The notes below the pieces were generated by a model. That model saw only the letters and a program-made list of their open reading frames with translations, was not told the DNA's origin and searched no databases. Made by a program: the position numbers and the translations under genes. Below, piece by piece: positions 2,697 through 14,311 of a stretch of DNA of 14,311 nt (position 1 is the first letter of the stretch; every line of letters starts with the position of its first letter). Origin of the DNA: Pelagophyceae sp. CCMP2097 (lineage: Eukaryota; Sar; Pelagophyceae); assembly GCA_026770575.1 (NCBI GenBank), contig MU658069.1, forward strand, positions 1-14,311. Reading direction: 5' to 3'.

Positions 2697-5600
2697 TCAG
2701 CCGTGCGGCAGCAGGCCATGGATCGGCGTCTGCGCAGTCCAGAGCCCAAGCTCGACGCCGAGGCTCAGCGCGCCGACCTAGGGCAGAATACGGTGCGGCG
2801 GCGGTCTGCGGTGACCCGCCTTTGGCGTGCGTCGACGTTTCCCCGGCGTGCCGTTGGTGCCGCCCGCGGCTCCCCCGTATCGGTGCGCCCGGACGCGGGC
2901 GGATACGGCGGCCGCGAAGCCGAGCTCCGTCTTGGTCACGCTCCCCCAGAAGTCGTCGAGCGCGGCCGCGAAGAGCGCGCGCGCGAAGCGCGAGAGCCTG
3001 AAATCCCGTGGCGCGCGCGCGCCGGCGTGGGAAGGGCTCACATTTCGTGGCGGAAGAGGAGGTAGCAGACGATGTACGTGAGGAGGCATCCGAGCGCGAG
3101 CCAGAGGCGGAACGTCACCGCGCGAGGCTGCGGCAGCGACTTCTTCGGCGCCTCCTCCACGACCGCCGCCGACGGCGGGCCGAAGACGCCTAAGATATCC
3201 CCGCCTCTGGGCCACGCGCCGGGAGATGCGACGGATTTTTCGACCGAATACGCGCGCGCGGCGAGCGACGGCGCACCTCCGCGTTCAAAGTCGTACATTT
3301 GCTTCTTCGTCGCGTCGGTGACGAGCATGAGCCTGCGGTCGCGGGTCTTGGGCGCCGCCGGGGAGCGAAGGCCGCACCGCCAGGTGACGAGGAAACATCG
3401 CTCGCCGAGGGCGTTGACGAATTCGACTTCAATGTCGATGAGCGGCCTGCGGTCGCCGCGCGTTTCGCGACCACCGAAACGCGCGCCGGGCGCACCCCGC
3501 GATGGTGCCGACGCGGACGCGCATCTCGTACGCCTCGCCCTGGAGCAGCTCGCGCTACATTTGGCAGAGGGTCTTTGCCGTGGGACTCTTCGTCAGCCGC
3601 GTCGCGCGGACGCACGTCGAATTTTGCGTTGATGCGTGACGCGAAGAACATGACGCGGAAGTAGTGCTCGAGGTGCGCGAGGCCCGTCTGGTGGACGAGG
3701 TTGTAAAAGCCACGTTCCGAGTCCCGCACAATCTCGCGGACCTAAACGTGGCGTGCGACGGGGCGCGAGGGCGAGGGGACGCGCCGTAAAATGCCGATTA
3801 TAGTCGGTCTGCTCGAAGAGCACTTCCGTGCCGGGCACGCGGACGACGAGCTCAAGGTCGATGAAACGCGGCGGGCTGAGCAGGAAGTGGTGCAGGCCGT
3901 CTCTGTACTGCATGCGCGTGTATCGCACGAAGCCTGCGACGAGCCGTGCGGCGGCCTTTTTTTGAACCGAGAGACGCACCGCGCCTGATCATGTAGACGA
4001 GGGCCCGGAAGGCCTCCCGGTGCGCCGGCTTCCGCGGGCCGCCTAGTTTTCGCCGTCGGCGGGCGTTTGGCGGGCGGCGGCACGCACTCGTCTCGTGCTC
4101 CGCGCCGGAGAGGCGGCGGTCGATGACCGCCTGGAGCGCGGGGATGTCGACGTGGGCGAAACGGTGCGTCGACTTCTTGGCGCCGGCGCCCTTGAGCGCG
4201 GCGCCGTAGATGCGCGCCAGCGACTGAATGTCTTCGGCGCCGACAAAGTCCTTGGCGCGCAGCTCGACGCCGAGCGCCGAGTTGAGTTTGGCCAAGAGCT
4301 CGACGGCCCGCAAAGAGTGCAGGCCATTCTCATAGAGCGACAGGCCCGCGTCCACGGGCGCGCCCGTCACCTCGGCGCCGAACAGCGCGATCTGCCGCGC
4401 CAGCGCCGACACGTCCGACGACCCATCAACCGCCGGCGCGTCCGGCGAGGCCGCCGACGGACCCGCCGGCGCCGCGCCCGCCGCCGCCTCGCGCCGCGGC
4501 CGCCGGTCCGCGCCCGCCCTACGGTTCGCGTCGGCGCCCGGCGCCCTTGATGCGTCGCTCACCTCGCAAAGGCAAAGGCCGTCATCGTCGCAAAGGGCGC
4601 CTGCCGCGGCGCGCCGAAGAAGGTGCCGTCGTCGCAGGCGTCGACGGAGTACCAGGCCAGGTCGGCGACGATTTGCGTGTCGCGCCTGGTCGACACCTCG
4701 GCCGGGCGCGTGGCGCGCGGAAACGCACCTGCTCGTGACCTCTGCGACGACGAGGACTGAACCGCGCAGGTCCGGCTCGGAGAGCATGTGGAAGGCCCCG
4801 ACGCCCTGAGGCAGGAACGCCGTCCCGCGGCCCAAGCTCTCCAGAGCGCACAGGGCCTGCAGCGGCGAGTCGAGCGCCGCGGAAACGTTGGCCGCGCGGC
4901 AGAGGACGCGCAGGGCAAAGTCGCGCCGCCACGCCACGCGCTCCACGCATCGGAACGCATCCGCGTAGTCCAGCCCGACGGCCGCGCAGCGCCGGTAGTG
5001 CGCCACCGCCCCGTGGTCGTCGACGACGGAATCCGCATCCCACGCGCCCAAATCCAGCGCGTCCAGCGCGTCCGCGGGCTCTGCGGCGTCCGTGGGCTCC
5101 GCGGCGTCCGCGGGCGCGCAGCCGCGCTCGCCGCCGTCCTCCTCCGCCGCCGTGTGCACCACGCACCGCACGAAATCTTCGGACCCCGCGCGCAGCGTCA
5201 CCTTGGCCTTGGACGCCCAAGCCGCCTGTTCGGAGCCGTCATCATCAAACCCCCGGAGAAGGGGTCGCACCTCGGAGGCCGAGGCGGTGTACTCGACGGA
5301 CGAATCGCGCGCCTGCGAGAGTGGCGTCGGCGCGCGCGGTTCGAACGCGGGCATCCGAAGAGGCTCTCCGGGTGTTGCTAGAGTACCTGTCGTAGGAATT
5401 CGACATGGGTGAGGAAGACGTCGGGCGTTTCGGGCCTGACGTAGGCGCGGCGCACGAGGTCGAGCCATCCCGTGCCAGGCAGGAGCGGCGAACCGAGGAC
5501 GACGTGGCCGTCGAAGCCCGCGTTTGCCCAGGCTTTTGCGCCGGCGACGGTCTTCTGCGCCGAGAGCGCTCGCCACGTGTCCGCGACGTCGCAGCAGGCG

Positions 5601-7680
5601 GCGTAGGCGGCGGCGTTCCGCACGGACCGCGCGGATGCGCCGGCCTCGAGGCGCGGCTCGCCGCGGAGCGCGGCGCGGAGCAGAGCGCGGCACGGCTTGC
5701 CCGTGACCGTAAAAGGCAAGTCGCTGACGAAGAGCACGGCGCGCGTCTCCGCGTGCGCGCCGAGCTGAGTGCGCGCCGCAGACCGTAGCGCCGCGAGGAC
5801 GGCGCCGTGGCGCACCGCGGCCGAGGCGACGACAAAGGCCACGGGGACTTCGCCCTCGAGCGCCGCCGGGGCGCCGACGACGGCCAGGCGCACGATGCCC
5901 TCGCCGCCCGCGGCGTAGGCGCACTGCTCAAGCTCCTCGACGCCGACGCGCACGCCGGAAACGTTCAAGACCTCGTCGGACCGGCCGAAGAACGTAAACC
6001 CTCCGTCGCCGTGCCTCACCGCCGCGTCGCCCTGCACGAAGCCCAGGCGCACGCCGCCCGCGTCACCCTCGCCGCAGCCGCCCTCGTCTGGGAAGTAGGC
6101 CTCTTTGAACCGTTCGGCGTCGCCGCGCCAATTCGCCTTTTCGTAGCCGGCGACGTTTCCCCAGACGGTGCGGCAGAGGCCAGCGTAGGGCCTCGTGAGG
6201 ACGACGCCGCGCAGGTTTCCCTCGCCGGCTAAAAGGTCGGCGGCGACCCAGGGCACGGCGTAGAGCTTTGTGCCGCAGTCTTTGTAGAAATCACGCGTGT
6301 GGCGCCGCGTCAGGACCACCGACCCGTGCTCCGTCGACCAGTACGAGACGAAGAAGTTGGAGCACAGCGCCCCGCGCGCCCATTTAAGCACGTCGTCGGA
6401 GCACGGCTCGGCGCAGAACGTGCCCGTCCGCAGCGTGGCCGGCAGGTCCAGCGCCGCCAGCGCGGCGCGCCGCCCCGGGTCCACCATGGCGTGCCGCGCA
6501 AAGGCCGACGCCAGCTTGAGCACCGTCACGCCTCTTTCGCGCGCCACGCGCGCCCACCGCAGGCCGTCGTGGCCCACCTAAGGACCGCCCGCGTCGACCA
6601 AGGCCCGCGTCGACAAAGGCGCTGTCGAGGCTTTTGGGACGCGGCCGCGCGCCGGCGAGCCCTCCATGAGGACGGACTTGCAGCGCGCGAGCAGCGGCGC
6701 CATGAGCATGTACGACTGGCCTGTGATCCACGCAAACGTGGCCACGACCAAGAAGACGTCAGACTCCTTCGCTTGAAAAACGTAGCTGTTCGTGCGCGCG
6801 AGCTGCGCGGGAAGAGGCGTCTTTGAAGCGCGGCGCGGCGAAACGGGCGGCGCGGGGTTAACAAAAAGCGGCTCACGGTGGCGGTGTAGCCGCCATGCGT
6901 GTGCACGGCGCCCTTTGGCTTGCCCGTGGACCCACTCGTGTAGACGACGCAGAGCGGCCTCGAGTCGTCGACGGAAACGGGCGTCGCGTAGCGGAGCGGC
7001 CCAACCGACAGCCGGGCAGCGTCGCCGGCGCGGATCTGGTGCACGGCCACCCCTTCAGCGCCGACGCGCCTCAGCGCGGCGCGCGCGCGGCTCGCCGGCG
7101 CCGCGCCGGGCCCCGAGACCTCGCCGTCGGCGCTGACGACGCAGACCGTCGGCGCAAAGTCGGCTAAGCGGTGGTCGAGGGCGCCGTCGGTGGCGTCGAG
7201 CGAGGAGCACGTGTAGGGGAACGCGAGGCGCGCGCACGCCAGCGCATAGATTGCGTGCTCGAGGCCCACGCGCGCGTGGAAGAACGCGCGCGGGCCCGCA
7301 TGCGCCAGCGCCTGCGCGGCGGCGCAGACGGCGACGAGAAGCTCGGCGCGCGTGATGGACGTGACCTCGTCGTCGATCGCGGAGACGTGTTCGTAGGCCA
7401 CGGCCCCCGGGTGCGTCAGCGCGCCGACGTCGACGGCGGTGAACGTCGCGTTGGTCCGCGCGCCGACGAACCACTTCATGTGCGGCGCGGAAGACGCGTC
7501 CAGCAGCCGCGTCCACGGCCGCCACTCCGCGGGCTTGGGCGCGCACACCTCGAGGTGCTGCGCCGCGCCGGCGGCGGCGGCGCGGTAGCCCTTCCACTCC
7601 GCGCCGTCGAACTTGTACCACCCGCCGTCTTCATCGAGCCAGTGGATGGCCGCGCCGTAGGCTTCATCTTCCTTGGACAT
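2697..7680 (-). CDS. Adenylation-dehydratase-ACP-thioesterase multidomain protein with hydrophobic C-terminus
   Basis: Model exons, 5' to 3' on the minus strand: 7680-6877, 6802-6653, 6577-5387, 5312-5271, 5225-4729, 4685-4563, 4518-4088, 3984-3785, 3741-3616, 3554-3496, 3446-3277, 3189-3042, 2997-2895, 2777-2697. This gives 1374 aa, and all junctions keep phase. Domains: residues 1-650 are an acetyl-CoA-synthetase-type adenylation domain, with N-terminal MKWFVGARTN, P-loop YTSGSTGKPKG at 247, AWITGQSY, YWSTEHG at about 397, FGRSDEVLNVSG at 515 and catalytic Lys612 in VTGKP. Residues 670-930 are a PKS-type dehydratase, with His676 in GHVVLGSPLLPG, GLDYADAFR, and Asp848 in ALDSPLQAL. Residues 970-1045 are an acyl carrier protein, with Ser1004 in GLHSLRAVELL. 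Residues 1085-1250 are hotdog thioesterase-like (FEQTDYNRHFT, RVGTIAGPLIDIEVEF). Residues 1291-1310 are hydrophobic, and a second hydrophobic stretch lies near the end. KS, AT and KR domains are absent. Inferred role: activate an acid, load it on the carrier, dehydrate and release it. Uncertain points are the 6653 donor (GT alternative after 6641), the in-frame 45-nt intron 5226-5270, the 2895 donor, and whether the last two exons are used. Confidence 0.78.
3742..3784 (-). other. Probable GC-AG intron inside the thioesterase-like domain
   Basis: Exon TTT ACG is followed by GCGCGTCC, and the next exon begins after CACGTTTAG. Only a GC donor at 3784 keeps the frame that joins DYNRHFT to VREIVRDSERGF, a natural hotdog-fold continuation. 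The nearest GT donor (GTCCCC) leaves a reading frame that loses the domain. The intron is 43 nt long. Confidence 0.65.
6578..6652 (-). other. Possible GC-AG intron in the adenylation domain
   Basis: Splicing MEGSP (ending 6653) directly to VGHDGLRW (from 6577) reproduces the expected acetyl-CoA-synthetase spacing and uses the donor GCGCGC. A GT donor at 6640 (GTCCCA) is also in phase and would add four residues (ARGR). The intron itself is certain, because its end carries an in-frame stop, but the donor is ambiguous. Confidence 0.5.
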
Positions 7681-8112: not shown

Positions 8113-9703
8113 TTACTGTTCCGGGCGGGCGGTCGACTGCGCTTCCAGCCAACGGCGCGAATCGAAGAGCTCGGCGGACCGCATTGCCCGGGCCCGGAGG
8201 TCCGCCTCCGCCGTGGCCAGGTCGAGGCCGGGGCAGTCACGCAGGCACCGCTGGATGGTCGACCTAGGCAGGCGCCGCGAAACGCGCCCGTAGGCCGCGC
8301 TCGCGATGCCCGCGGCCGTCGCCACGTCTGGGCTGTACTCGTCGAGCGCGCCGAGCCTGCGGTGCGCATCATACACGCGCCGCAGTCCCCCGGCGCGAAG
8401 CACAGACCAGAGCAGCGCGCAGCGGAGCGCCTCGCCGTCGCGCGCGAGGATCGGCGGCAGCTCCGCGACGGCCAAGTCGTGAGCGTCCGGCGCCGCAGGG
8501 GTTGCCTCCGCCGCCACCTTGGAGGCCGCCGCGGGGGCGGCCGCCGGAGCCGGCGAAACGTCGGCGCCGATGTCGCTCATAAAGTCCGCCTGAAGAAGGG
8601 CGGCCTCGGTCGGACGCCGAAGCGCAGAGGCCCACGCACGACGCGCGCGACGAGGGAGTGGGCGCGCCGCTGGAGCGCCATGGGGTAGGGCGCCGCGGCG
8701 CGGCGTTGCGCGCGCGCGTCGTCGAGCAGCGCGCGCGTCTGCTTCTCGAGGCCCGCGCCGCCGCCCGCTGGCCCTGCGCGGCGGGCTTCGGCCTCGACGG
8801 CGTCGTAATTCTCCTCGACGCGGTCGAGGGCGGCTTCAAAGGCCTCGTCGGCGGCGTTGGAATCAAAAGCGGGCGCGCCGTCCCAGAAGCCGTGGTGCGC
8901 GACTAAATACTTTTCGCGTTTTGCGGCCGTGCAGTCGCGCGGGTAGACGTAGTGCAGCGTGACAGCGTCGCCTCTGGAAATGGCAGACGTCGCCCAGACT
9001 TCCGAGAGCTCGCCCACGAGGAGCTGCGTCGCCGGCGCATTTTCTGAATCGTTGAAGAGCGACTTGTGCAGGTAAAGACCAGACTCGAACGCGTTAAAGC
9101 GCCACGCCAGCGCCAGCCGCACGATGCCGTCGTACTCCCCGTCGATCGAATCCGCCGCGGGGTGCCTAGGCACGTCGATGAGCGCTCCGCAGCGCCCGTC
9201 GCAGCGCCCCGCGTCCGCCTTTGGGACGCCGGCGTGCATTGCAGGCGGTCGAGCGAGGCTTTGAGGTCGGGGTCGATCTACGTTTCTAAAGATGACGGGA
9301 GACGGGCTTTGGCGGGTGCGGCGGTCCCGCGCACCTCTGACATGCCTAAAAGCTGTTCCGCGGCGTCCTCGAGGACGTGCTCGCGGTCGACGTCGCACCG
9401 TTCAATCACGGCGCGCTCGACCATGAGCAGCTCGCCGGGTTCAACGTCGCGCGCGGCGACGTAGCCGCGGCCGCCGCCGACGTCGGCCAGGTCCTCGCGC
9501 AGCTCCATGGCGTCGGAGAGGTAAACGAGGTACTCTGCGTGAGCCGGAAAGTACTCTACCAGCGGCGTCCCGACCTGGCCCGGGCGCACGGGGGGCAGTG
9601 GCGTCAGATACGGGCCGCCGCGATGCGGCGGCGGCGGCCCGGTGGCCAGCGTGGATTCGTCGTCCGACGCGGCGTCCGAGTCGTCGCCGAACAAGTCGTC
9701 CAT
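8113..9703 (-). CDS. Divergent SET-domain protein (SMYD/SETD6-like arrangement)
   Basis: Model: complement(join(8113..8589,8640..9165,9228..9277,9335..9703)), 473 aa, with introns of 57, 62 and 50 nt, all GT-AG and in phase. SET proteins usually methylate lysines using S-adenosylmethionine. Residues 78-93 (GRGYVAARDVEPGELL) are the usual N-terminal SET strand. Residues 172-185 (HKSLFNDSENAPA) sit where NHSCxPN is expected but lack the His and Cys. Residues 205-214 (GDAVTLHYVY) match the GEExxxxY segment and are followed by REKYLVAHHGF. The N-terminus is acidic (DDLFGDDSDAASDDES). A predicted helical region and an Ala/Pro linker lead to a C-terminal domain (residues about 335-473) that I do not recognise. 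The ATG at 9703 was chosen because the longer frame upstream begins only with TTG. The degenerate NHSC motif raises doubt about catalysis. The substrate cannot be inferred. Confidence 0.75.
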
Positions 9704-9844
9704 CGCCCCGCGCGGCGGCGGCGGCGGCGGCGGCGACGCCTCGCGCGCGCGCTTCGTGCCGAAGCTCGGCAGGCGGTTCCGGATCGCCACCTCGAGCTTG
9801 GGCCTGCGGGGGCGCGTCCGAGGGACGGCGATACGACGCAAGGC
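9704..9844 (-). promoter_or_regulatory. Short intergenic spacer between NAT9-PAC4 and SET genes
   Basis: Only 141 bases separate the two same-strand genes. The minus-strand frame through it encodes a basic, proline-rich stretch (TKRAREASPPPPP) continuous with the SET protein, but it has no ATG, so it is taken as 5' leader. An upstream non-ATG start or a small leader exon cannot be excluded. Confidence 0.35.
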
Positions 9845-11165
9845 TCACGCGAAGAGGCCGTGCTCCTCGCCGAGGGACCACGAGACGACGACGAGGCGCT
9901 TGGACCGCTGCGAGAGCCTCTGCGCCATGGGCGCGCCGATGCCGGCCGCGTCGTCGACGATGGACGTCACGGCGACCATACCGTGCTCGAAGCTGCCGCG
10001 GGCAAGCGTCCCGGTTGCGGACGGCAAATCCTCGGCGCGTACACTTTCGAGCACAAGGTCAGGGTACGCACGCCGCGGGCGCGGCGATGCACATGGACTC
10101 CATCCTCGGGTCGTCGCCCTTGCCGACCCAGACCCAAGCGCACTTTTCGCCAAAGAGGAAGATGGCGCAGCTGAATTTCTCGTCCAGAAGCTGCTCCTCG
10201 AACCGGATGACGTCAAAGGCGGACCCCGAGTTGGGCGCCAGGAAGGTCGTCTCGCTCAGCGGCAGCGCGGCGTCCGCGACGCGGGCCGCCGAAAGCTCGA
10301 GCTCCGTCTCCTTGAACGCCTCGGAGTAATTGCACTTTGCAAATCCAAGGCATTCGAAGAGCTTCAGACTCGCGGCGTTGCCGTCGCCGATCTTGACGAA
10401 GAAGCTCTTTATTGTCATCTTCGCGCGCGCGTACGACATAACGAGGCGCACCGCCTCCGACCCGCAGCCTAAACCGGGCGATGGACACCCGCAGTCATGC
10501 TCCCGAGCCGCGCACCTCGGCCCCGGGCCGCGGCCTCGGCGATCATGACTTCGACCTCTCCGCGCGCGCCATCGTCGCGGTCGCGGAAGACGTTGACGTC
10601 GCCGACCATGGCACTCGCCGGGAACCTGCGAGTGCCACAGAGCGTCAAGGTTTAATCGGACGTCGCGACTTTCACGCATGTGTCGTTTGAGATGCGCCCC
10701 ACGACTGCCCGTGCGCTCGGGTCGGACGCTCCTCGACAGTCGCGCGGCAAGTTCATCGAGCGACGCCGCCTTGGACGCTTCCGCGTGCGTCGAAGCGCCG
10801 CAGCGGCACAGCGCCTTGTCGAGGACGATGAACGTCAGCTTGGCCTCGTCGTCGCGCCACGAGACGCAGTTCGCCGCCTACGACGCGCGATTCGCCTTTT
10901 GCGGCTCCGCGCGGCGCGTGCCCTTTCGGCGTCGGGCGCGGGTCTCGTACCTCTTGCTCCAGGGTCAGCTTGTCGCTCGCCGTGAGCCGGAGCATTTCCT
11001 CATCTTGCATCCATGCCTATCTCGGCGTCGGACGACCGGCGATCCTCGCCCGACCGCGCGCCGTATACGCCGGTTTCGCGCGTGGTAGCGCTCGACGTAG
11101 TGCTCGCGGTACGGCACGAGCACGACGTGTCGCCCGATCAGCGCCGTGTCCCAGTTCAACCGCAT
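9845..11165 (-). CDS. NAT9-like GNAT acetyltransferase fused to a PAC4-like proteasome assembly chaperone
   Basis: Model: complement(join(9845..9992,10072..10468,10516..10625,10777..10877,10951..11016,11082..11165)), 301 aa, all junctions in phase. Residues 1-181 follow the NAT9 (N-acetyltransferase 9) family from the first residue: MRLNWDTALIGRHVVLVPY, WMQDEEMLRLTASDKLTLEQE (split here by its length as WMQDEEMLRL then TASDKLTLEQE), LTFIVLD, MVGDVNVF, GEVEVMIAE, the acetyl-CoA-binding ARGRGCGSEAV at about 117-126, and KIGDGNAASLKLFECLGF. Residues about 203-301 resemble PSMG4/PAC4: FEEQLLDEKFSC, CAWVWVGKGD, and AQRLSQRSKRLVVVSW near the C-terminus. PAC4 pairs with PAC3 in alpha-ring assembly of the 20S proteasome. 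Both domains lie in one exon (10468-10072) with no stop and no Met between them. The first intron (11017-11081) has a GC donor; the 47-151-nt others are GT-AG. Gene symbols NAT9 and PSMG4 apply to the halves. Confidence 0.85.
11017..11081 (-). other. GC-AG intron in the NAT9 domain
   Basis: Exon 1 ends ERYH (TAC CAC) and is followed by GCGCGAAACC. Exon 2 begins AWMQDEEM after GAGATAG. NAT9 proteins have RYHEWM at this point, so phase 0 is required. The only GT nearby (GTATAC) is in the wrong phase. The intron is 65 nt. This is the best-supported non-canonical donor in the window. Confidence 0.8.
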
Positions 11166-13537: not shown

Positions 13538-13671
13538 ACAAGGGGGGTCCAACATGAAACGGATTCCACTCAACTACAAATTTCTCGGGCTACAAACGAG
13601 GTATGGGGCCACTTATGGTCGCTGCGTCGCGGGCTGGTGGCGGCGCGGTCCCCGACGAAGGAAGTTTGTTT
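13538..13671 (-). repeat. Dispersed repeat D, right copy
   Basis: This is the inverted partner of 530-663, about 90% identical over 134 bases. The best-conserved part is GAGGTATGGGGCCACTTATG (GTGGCCCCATACCTC on the left copy). Confidence 0.9.
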
Positions 13672-13862
13672 ATGGGCTCGATCCGCCGACCGTGAAGCCG
13701 TTTTCAAGAATAAAACGGTGTAAAACTTGACACCATTTCCGCGTAATTGCGGATTTGCATGGGCGTTTTAAGTGAAATGGGGCCCATAACTTGCAAAATG
13801 GAGCCCATAGCCTAAATTTTGGGCCTTATCCCGAACCTCCATGGGCCACTAGGCCGGACTCT

Positions 13863-13937
13863 GGCGACGCCAGGGCCTACAGCCGACCCCAATGAAGTGG
13901 CAGGGAGGGCGACGCTAGGGCCTACAGCCGACCTCAA
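13863..13937 (+). repeat. Short tandem duplication, 45-bp period
   Basis: A 30-base unit (GGCGACGCCAGGGCCTACAG followed by CCGACCCCAA) at 13863-13892 recurs at 13908-13937 with two changes. A partial third start (GGCGACGCT) lies near 13948. It has no coding context. Confidence 0.75.
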
Positions 13938-14114
13938 ACCGGCTTTTGGCGACGCTGAAATCGAGATTGCGCGCGGGATACGCGAAAAACGGAAGAGGTC
14001 CGCCTCCAGCCCGATACCTTGGGACGAGCCGGACATGTCCAGCCACTCAAAGTCTTCTCAAACGTGCTGTGGAGGTTCGGAAATGAGCGGCTTTTTCATG
14101 TTGAACACCCCTTG

Positions 14115-14184
14115 TACGAGCTTAGCCTCCCCCTAGGGCCCTATCGTATTATGACAATAGCTTGCACTTTCATTGTGTCATAAT
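14115..14184 (-). repeat. Dispersed repeat B, right copy
   Basis: This is the inverted partner of 268-329. It keeps the ATTATGAC/GTCATAAT inverted pair around CAATAGCTTGCACTTTCATT and has a small CCCTAGGGCC-type insertion next to CTATCG. Confidence 0.8.
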
Positions 14185-14186
14185 TG

Positions 14187-14249
14187 AGGACCCGAAGGGT
14201 CCTTGCCGTTTATTCAACGTCAGTTTACGGCAAGGGCCCTTCGGGTCCT
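14187..14249 (+). repeat. Long-stem hairpin (23-bp arms)
   Basis: Arms 14187-14209 and 14227-14249 are inverted repeats with one mismatch and a 17-base loop. The outer part, AGGACCCGAAGG, also occurs in repeat C (GGACCCGAAGG), so the hairpin looks built from the same element family. No gene ends nearby in the window, so a terminator role has no support. Confidence 0.85.
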
Positions 14250-14263
14250 TTGATTGAAGGATT

Positions 14264-14311
14264 ATTACAAGAGCGCGCCGGAGGCACACGGAGGACCCGA
14301 AGGATACAGCC
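14264..14311 (-). repeat. Dispersed repeat C, right copy (cut by window edge)
   Basis: The exact reverse complement of 444-491 occupies the last 48 bases of the window. The match may continue beyond the edge. Confidence 0.9.

Follow-up and report, generated by a model that had tools for sequence, protein, structure and literature searches.

A 14,311-nucleotide stretch of contig MU658069.1 from the alga Pelagophyceae sp. CCMP2097 (hereafter the window) carries on its minus strand a gene whose predicted product joins, in one chain, an adenylation (A) domain, a polyketide synthase (PKS)-type dehydratase (DH), an acyl carrier protein (ACP) and a hotdog thioesterase (TE)-like domain. Our preferred reading, to which we give a probability of about 0.4, is that this protein would be an enzyme of one chain, anchored to a membrane, that processes a C3 acid on its own ACP. 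On sequence comparison, the A domain falls with the domain of propionyl-CoA synthase (PCS) that activates 3-hydroxypropionate, apart from acetyl-CoA synthetase. We computed the domain order, the DH fold (in a homologue), the active-site residues, the kinship of the A domain, and the loss of its FGGF motif and key arginine.

Gene model and domain order

The gene was modelled as 15 exons running from 7680 to 2697 on the minus strand (Table 1), and the chain gave one protein of 1374 residues (aa) with no internal stops. This model and the co-linear homologues bear out the single strand and single splice chain, coding for 1374 aa, that a preliminary description of the window had claimed from its letters. 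The 14 introns were short (43-129 nt), with GC donors in 2/14. Introns 6578-6652 and 3333-3377 were set with the homologues as guide, since extra residues would otherwise appear, and the joints were therefore not all called blind; for intron 3742-3784, the GC donor had been preferred before the homologue comparison. For intron 8, an 82-nt version with GT-AG borders was dropped because it would delete TDYNRHFT, a stretch found in 12/12 homologues. A gene end at 3038, or a division into two separate genes, was also ruled out: the homologues continue to a final PHG, which matches the end at 2697.

Twelve homologues (P0001-P0012, eight long and four partial) showed the same domain order at 36-45% identity. 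The eight long ones measured 1262-1430 aa and ran in one chain from the A domain to the tail, some of them without the start of the A domain, and both P0006 and P0008 were open reading frames (ORFs) from MMETSP transcripts labelled 'type:complete'. The tested active-site residues and the final PHG were kept across the homologues. The A-DH-ACP-TE gene is real and conserved, and is no artefact. NCBIfam gave no names for P0001, P0007 and P0009, the best models lying far below their cut-offs. No viral relatives were found, as 0 of the 22 pattern matches in viral contigs (QTDYNRH, AHLEHY[FY]) were confirmed. A search of the alga's own genome (66.2 Mb, 638 contigs) with exon 3 as query returned the window plus two weak partial matches only (28-34% identity).

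In the final model, Pfam listed AMP-binding (149.7 bits), AMP-binding_C (44.0 bits), PKS_DH_N (19.6 bits, below its cut-off of 27), PS-DH, PP-binding (29.9 bits) and 4HBT_2, so that AMP-binding, the PS-DH region, PP-binding and 4HBT_2 stood in the order that the preliminary description had given. The spliced protein showed no ketoacyl synthase (KS), acyltransferase (AT), ketoreductase (KR), crotonase or reductase domain in Pfam with E up to 1, a listing in which the HMMER filters discard most matches above about 0.1, and neither a condensation domain nor an alpha/beta-hydrolase TE at E 1. The earlier claim that the chain has no KS agrees with this result.

PS-DH scored 27.3 bits on the DH piece alone and 23.6 bits on the whole protein, against a cut-off of 23.7. 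For the DH motifs HxxxGxxxxP and DxxxQ, the H, P, D and Q were present in 13/13 rows and the G of HxxxG in 12/13. The predicted structure of homologue P0009 showed a double-hotdog DH fold, with 5BP3, 5IL5 and 5HST as its kin. The PKS dehydratase with both catalytic residues that had been described from the sequence was thus upheld by a PS-DH score above the cut-off on the DH piece and by His676 and Asp863. The carrier protein with its phosphopantetheine serine was likewise recovered, through the PP-binding match and Ser1019. The match to a phosphopantetheinyl transferase in the alga's own genome was weak (24.6 bits, or 25.6 bits with neighbours, for a cut-off of 25).

The hotdog thioesterase-like domain, also part of the preliminary description, was found again as a profile match, with 4HBT_2 scoring 27.4 bits against a cut-off of 25.5. 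Its five residues listed in Table 1 were identical in 13/13 rows, and across the family no other part was as well conserved as the TE (57-68% identity). In the hydropathy profiles, a C-terminal stretch lay above the threshold in 13/13 rows, and the same threshold was met inside soluble domains in 6/13 rows, including residues 562-580 of the window protein. These profiles point to one or two membrane segments at the C-terminus, a feature that the preliminary description does not have. PHG formed the extreme C-terminus in 13/13 rows, though the membrane tail was just 14-23% identical to that of the window protein. In the window protein and four homologues, residues 1-30 were not hydrophobic (mean -1.0 to 0.1), and since the N-terminus is co-aligned with that of PCS, our guess is that the enzyme would lie on the cytosolic side.

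The adenylation domain and related systems

The best PDB match for the window protein was 6EQO, with 235 bits versus 156 bits for the best acetyl-CoA synthetase, and the same entry was top for P0002 (213 vs 152 bits) and P0007 (255 vs 203 bits). We take 6EQO to be PCS; its title in the PDB listing is acetyl-coenzyme A synthetase. Prokaryote genomes were scanned for PCS-type A domains with the patterns [AG]WITGQSY and TFCAEP[VC]S, which gave 407 matches, 364 of them confirmed, and the best 80 of the 364 were analysed. These loci came from Halieaceae, Chloroflexus and its kin, Azospirillum, haloarchaea and others. Fifteen of the 80 reading frames reached the locus end, and 64 of the 65 closed ones were 1749-1994 aa long, which is the length of PCS, the exception being L043 with 1209 aa. 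Five of the 80 were checked with Pfam, and synthetase, crotonase and reductase domains were present in 5/5 of these PCS ORFs, with ADH_zinc at E 1e-5 in each (in L065 just below the Pfam cut-off). The scan was aimed at the PCS-type A domain, with prokaryotic copies of the full architecture outside its target, and because its patterns favour PCS by design, it leaves room for other A domains that are equally close.

The tree comprised 42 rows, namely nine family A domains, 16 PCS, 15 of 30 TIGR02188 loci (those that passed a filter on length and motif), E. coli Acs and E. coli PrpE. The family and PCS fell together on one side of a branch with an SH-aLRT of 100, and the same branch was recovered at 100/100 after removal of three pocket stretches. 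Four rows across the branch were acetoacetyl-CoA synthetases by NCBIfam (L109 was cut by the locus end), and rooting the tree at these made the family and PCS one clade. Four family rows, including the window, deviated in letter make-up in the tree alignment. Kinship of the A domain with acetyl-CoA synthetase or PrpE was ruled out by the tree and the pocket. The 'acetyl-CoA-synthetase type' named in the preliminary description is therefore right at the superfamily level, and at the finer level it gives way to a PCS type by PDB match, tree and pocket. The capacity of the A domain to load a free acid, which was also proposed there, is supported.

At positions 310, 311, 386 and 414 (E. coli Acs numbering), the first three of which we take to be acyl-pocket residues along with the Trp at 414, I-T-C-W was found in 9/9 family A domains and in 72/72 PCS rows, the latter count being partly circular because the locus patterns include three of the four pocket residues. 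The 72 PCS rows were P0013, P0014 and 70 of the 80 loci, the other 10 having been excluded for their length or because a motif was missing. 6EQO, P0013 and P0014 share the pocket and are free of the pattern circularity. Acs had V-T-V-W at the same four positions, and PrpE had V-V-A-W. FGGF at 163-166, presumably the CoA-site motif, and Arg191 were absent from the family (0/9 rows), whereas Acs, PrpE and 72/72 PCS rows had both. According to passages of PMC10455477, the Trp of the pocket sets the acyl range in Acs, Arg191 contacts both phosphate ends of CoA, and an Arg-to-Ala change at 191 in another Acs left that enzyme unsaturable for CoA up to 25 mM. With the usual CoA-site residues lost, the adenylate would, on the simplest reading, pass to the ACP of the same chain. 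The pocket of a C2-C3 enzyme without these residues points to 3-hydroxypropionate or acrylate as the probable substrate.

Further likeness to PCS was seen in the N-terminal AIxW...W and in the WITGQSY, FCAEP and YW-TEHG stretches, which the family and PCS have in common together with the acyl pocket, and in a layout that would place activation before dehydration in one chain. After (R)T(V/I/L)(W/F)G, 16-18 residues followed in 9/9 family rows and 16-24 in 12/16 PCS rows (the other 4 being unreliable), whereas this stretch was 4 residues long in the four other rows readable by the pattern (of 17), including E. coli Acs and PrpE. However, the algal protein lacks the enoyl-CoA hydratase (crotonase) and the enoyl reductase, both of which were present in 5/5 PCS ORFs, and its family lacks the CoA-site motif; in their place come DH, ACP, a hotdog TE and likely membrane segments. 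With the type I PKS dehydratases (PF14765/PF21089; 5BP3, 5IL5, 5HST) it shares the double-hotdog fold and the motifs HxxxGxxxxP and DxxxQ, but the chain has no KS, AT or KR. Enzymes of the A-T-TE kind, which resemble nonribosomal peptide synthetases, also combine adenylation, carrier and thioesterase in one chain. The algal protein differs from them in its acetate/propionate type of A domain, its extra DH, its hotdog TE in place of an alpha/beta-hydrolase TE, and its likely membrane segments. In Chrysophaeum taylorii, 13 PKS genes are described, most of them with an A domain at the N-terminus, so that an A domain likewise stands ahead of PKS-type domains; in contrast to the KS-less protein here, these genes are KS-bearing type I PKSs (PMC10366177, in excerpt). 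Parts of PMC4661987 cover algal type I PKSs more generally.

Among the matches listed from the open-access PMC literature, we recognised no KS-less A-DH-ACP-TE protein, in line with the preliminary description, which knew of none, no paper on a PCS-type domain in eukaryotes and nothing usable as a polyketide precedent for acryloyl-ACP formation. Each part is of a known kind; what those matches do not describe is the combination of parts and the exchange of CoA for a carrier.

Proposed route and competing readings

In the proposed route, the A domain would use ATP to make the adenylate of a C3 acid, most likely 3-hydroxypropionate, and the acyl group would be transferred to the phosphopantetheine arm of the adjacent ACP, bypassing CoA. 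The PKS-type DH would convert 3-hydroxypropionyl-ACP into acryloyl-ACP and water, the hotdog TE, next to the membrane segment, would cleave the thioester to release a C3 product (acrylate), and the membrane segment would anchor the chain end. PCS performs C3 chemistry inside one CoA-based chain, and the algal route would parallel its first two steps, with ACP for CoA, a hotdog dehydratase for the crotonase-fold hydratase and a thioesterase for the reductase. We infer the substrate, the direction, the product, the ACP as acceptor and the membrane attachment. As a tentative account of its origin, it is possible that an algal lineage took a PCS-type A domain, lost the CoA site and rebuilt the steps from 3-hydroxypropionate to acryloyl on an ACP with a polyketide DH and a membrane TE, keeping the acryloyl group tethered.

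Several points weigh against this reading besides the circularity in the pocket count. Arg584 was kept in 6/9 family rows and Arg526 in 9/9; Arg584 meets the 3'-phosphate of CoA, and in PrpE, which is a CoA ligase, this position is Asp. Position 191 was a gap in 8/9 family rows and Gln in one, in a loop that is insecurely aligned, and P0006 has an Arg nearby. The shared pocket could be a legacy of common descent and does not necessarily determine the substrate, and the family branch in the tree was long, with 1.7-1.8 changes per column. At E 0.001, PS-DH was found in just 3/12 homologues and 4HBT_2 in 9/12, falling short in the other 3. A PS-DH search of the alga's own genome gave two other places and missed this gene, in which the DH is split by introns. 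The structure model is that of homologue P0009, with a mean pLDDT of 54 and a TE part mostly below 50, and the fold matches listed for it were DH-bearing chains and one ACP.

The chain could also run in reverse as a tethered acrylate detoxifier, in which acrylate, for example from dimethylsulfoniopropionate (DMSP), would be adenylated, the acryloyl-ACP hydrated and 3-hydroxypropionate freed by the TE. Dehydratases are reversible, and because the chain has no reductase or KS to pull the dehydration, the enzyme might just as well hydrate acrylate. The unsaturated acid or thioester named as product in the preliminary description is possible, with acrylate hydration equally so. The tether would keep acryloyl away from CoA, and the pelagophytes measured held about 14 to 234 mM DMSP (PMC11306096, in excerpt), which would make acrylate chemistry relevant if this alga belongs among them. 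Even so, we consider the reverse run rather unlikely. PCS-type A domains are known for 3-hydroxypropionate, and the exon-wise genome search gave 0 matches to PF01177, the family of Asp/Glu racemases into which we assume the Alma DMSP lyase falls, so an Alma-like lyase was absent from that search. As for an acrylate reductase, TIGR02823 gave four matches in the genome, 0 of them above the cut-off.

The same layout might serve an acid other than C3, such as a branched or another short 3-hydroxy acid, given that the DH family is broad and that pocket residues beyond the four positions were compared by eye only; the W at 414 and the WITGQSYM, FCAEP and YW-TEHG stretches common to PCS speak against this and make it unlikely. 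We regard it as improbable that the protein is a loading machine, in which acryloyl or 3-hydroxypropionyl would be passed from the ACP to a KS in trans or to a membrane acyltransferase while the hotdog domain edits or transfers. Many Chrysophaeum taylorii PKSs have an N-terminal A domain to which starter loading is ascribed (PMC10366177, in excerpt), and KS matches were found on 7 other contigs of this genome, some of which may belong to fatty-acid synthesis; however, the strong conservation of the hotdog domain fits catalytic release, without proving it. A prediction artefact, either a wrong splice chain joining two neighbouring genes or a decaying pseudogene, is scarcely credible: two introns do require GC donors, but the eight long homologues are co-linear in one chain, two homologues are complete MMETSP ORFs, and the active-site residues are invariant.

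Genomic surroundings and wider meaning

The exon-wise search of the genome gave 10 ketoacyl-synthase matches, on contigs C22, C111, C30, C328, C16, C19 and C140, with six of them in open frames of 1773-4324 aa, and the alga seems PKS-rich. Light-harvesting proteins gave 60 matches. Inverted repeat copies at the two ends of the window are perhaps a mobile or subtelomeric element. The other neighbours of the gene are given at the end of Table 1.

Table 1. Coordinates of the gene, its domains and neighbouring features in the window (nt; aa numbers refer to the 1374-aa protein)
Feature	Position	Strand	Basis or remark
Whole gene	2697..7680	-	Splice chain; exon joints checked against homologues P0001-P0008
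Exons 1-5	7680-6877, 6802-6653, 6577-5387, 5312-4729, 4685-4563	-	
Exons 6-10	4518-4088, 4042-3980, 3933-3785, 3741-3616, 3554-3496	-	
Exons 11-15	3446-3378, 3332-3277, 3189-3042, 2997-2907, 2777-2697	-	
GC-AG intron within A domain	6578..6652	-	Yields EGSP-VGHDG; EGSPLG in 7/8 long homologues
GC-AG intron within TE	3742..3784	-	Yields QTDYNRHFTVREI, same in 12/12 homologues
PCS-type A domain, aa 80-616	5684..7443	-	Pfam, PDB, trees, pocket; P-loop from 247, W398 of acyl pocket, Lys612
PKS-type double-hotdog DH, aa about 665-955	4506..5539	-	Pfam, residues, fold of homologue P0009
DH residues	His676 (5506-5504), Asp863 (4871-4869), Gln867	-	
ACP, aa about 986-1065	4176..4415	-	Ser1019 (4316-4314)
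Hotdog TE-like domain (4HBT_2), aa about 1150-1260	3302..3832	-	Pfam, residues D1159 N1161 H1163 E1168 E1174
Putative C-terminal membrane segments, aa about 1292-1315 and weaker 1343-1361, tail ...LLPHG	2697..3121	-	Hydropathy, C-terminus
Ribosomal protein L11 gene	1564-2265	-	Immediately downstream, same strand; Ribosomal_L11 73 bits, Ribosomal_L11_N 63 bits
SET-domain-like stretch	9278-9844	-	By eye (RGYVAARDVEPGELLMVE); Pfam nothing on single frame; gene may be intron-split
GNAT acetyltransferase, weak match	10059-10877	-	22 bits, cut-off 25.4; N-acetyltransferase-like start upstream by eye
Inverted repeat copies at window ends	268-663 and 13538-14311		174 nt 86%, 52 nt 98%, 45 nt 96% complementarity

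In bacteria, the handling of acryloyl thioesters is a toxicity problem (PMC4029986, in excerpt). If the preferred reading is true, the carrier-bound algal route would be a second solution to this problem beside PCS, and a polyketide dehydratase would be at work outside polyketide synthesis. In DMSP-rich algae, such an enzyme could decide the fate of acrylate or 3-hydroxypropionate. The protein would thus offer a concrete enzyme to study for the 3-hydroxypropionate and acrylate metabolism of DMSP-producing algae.

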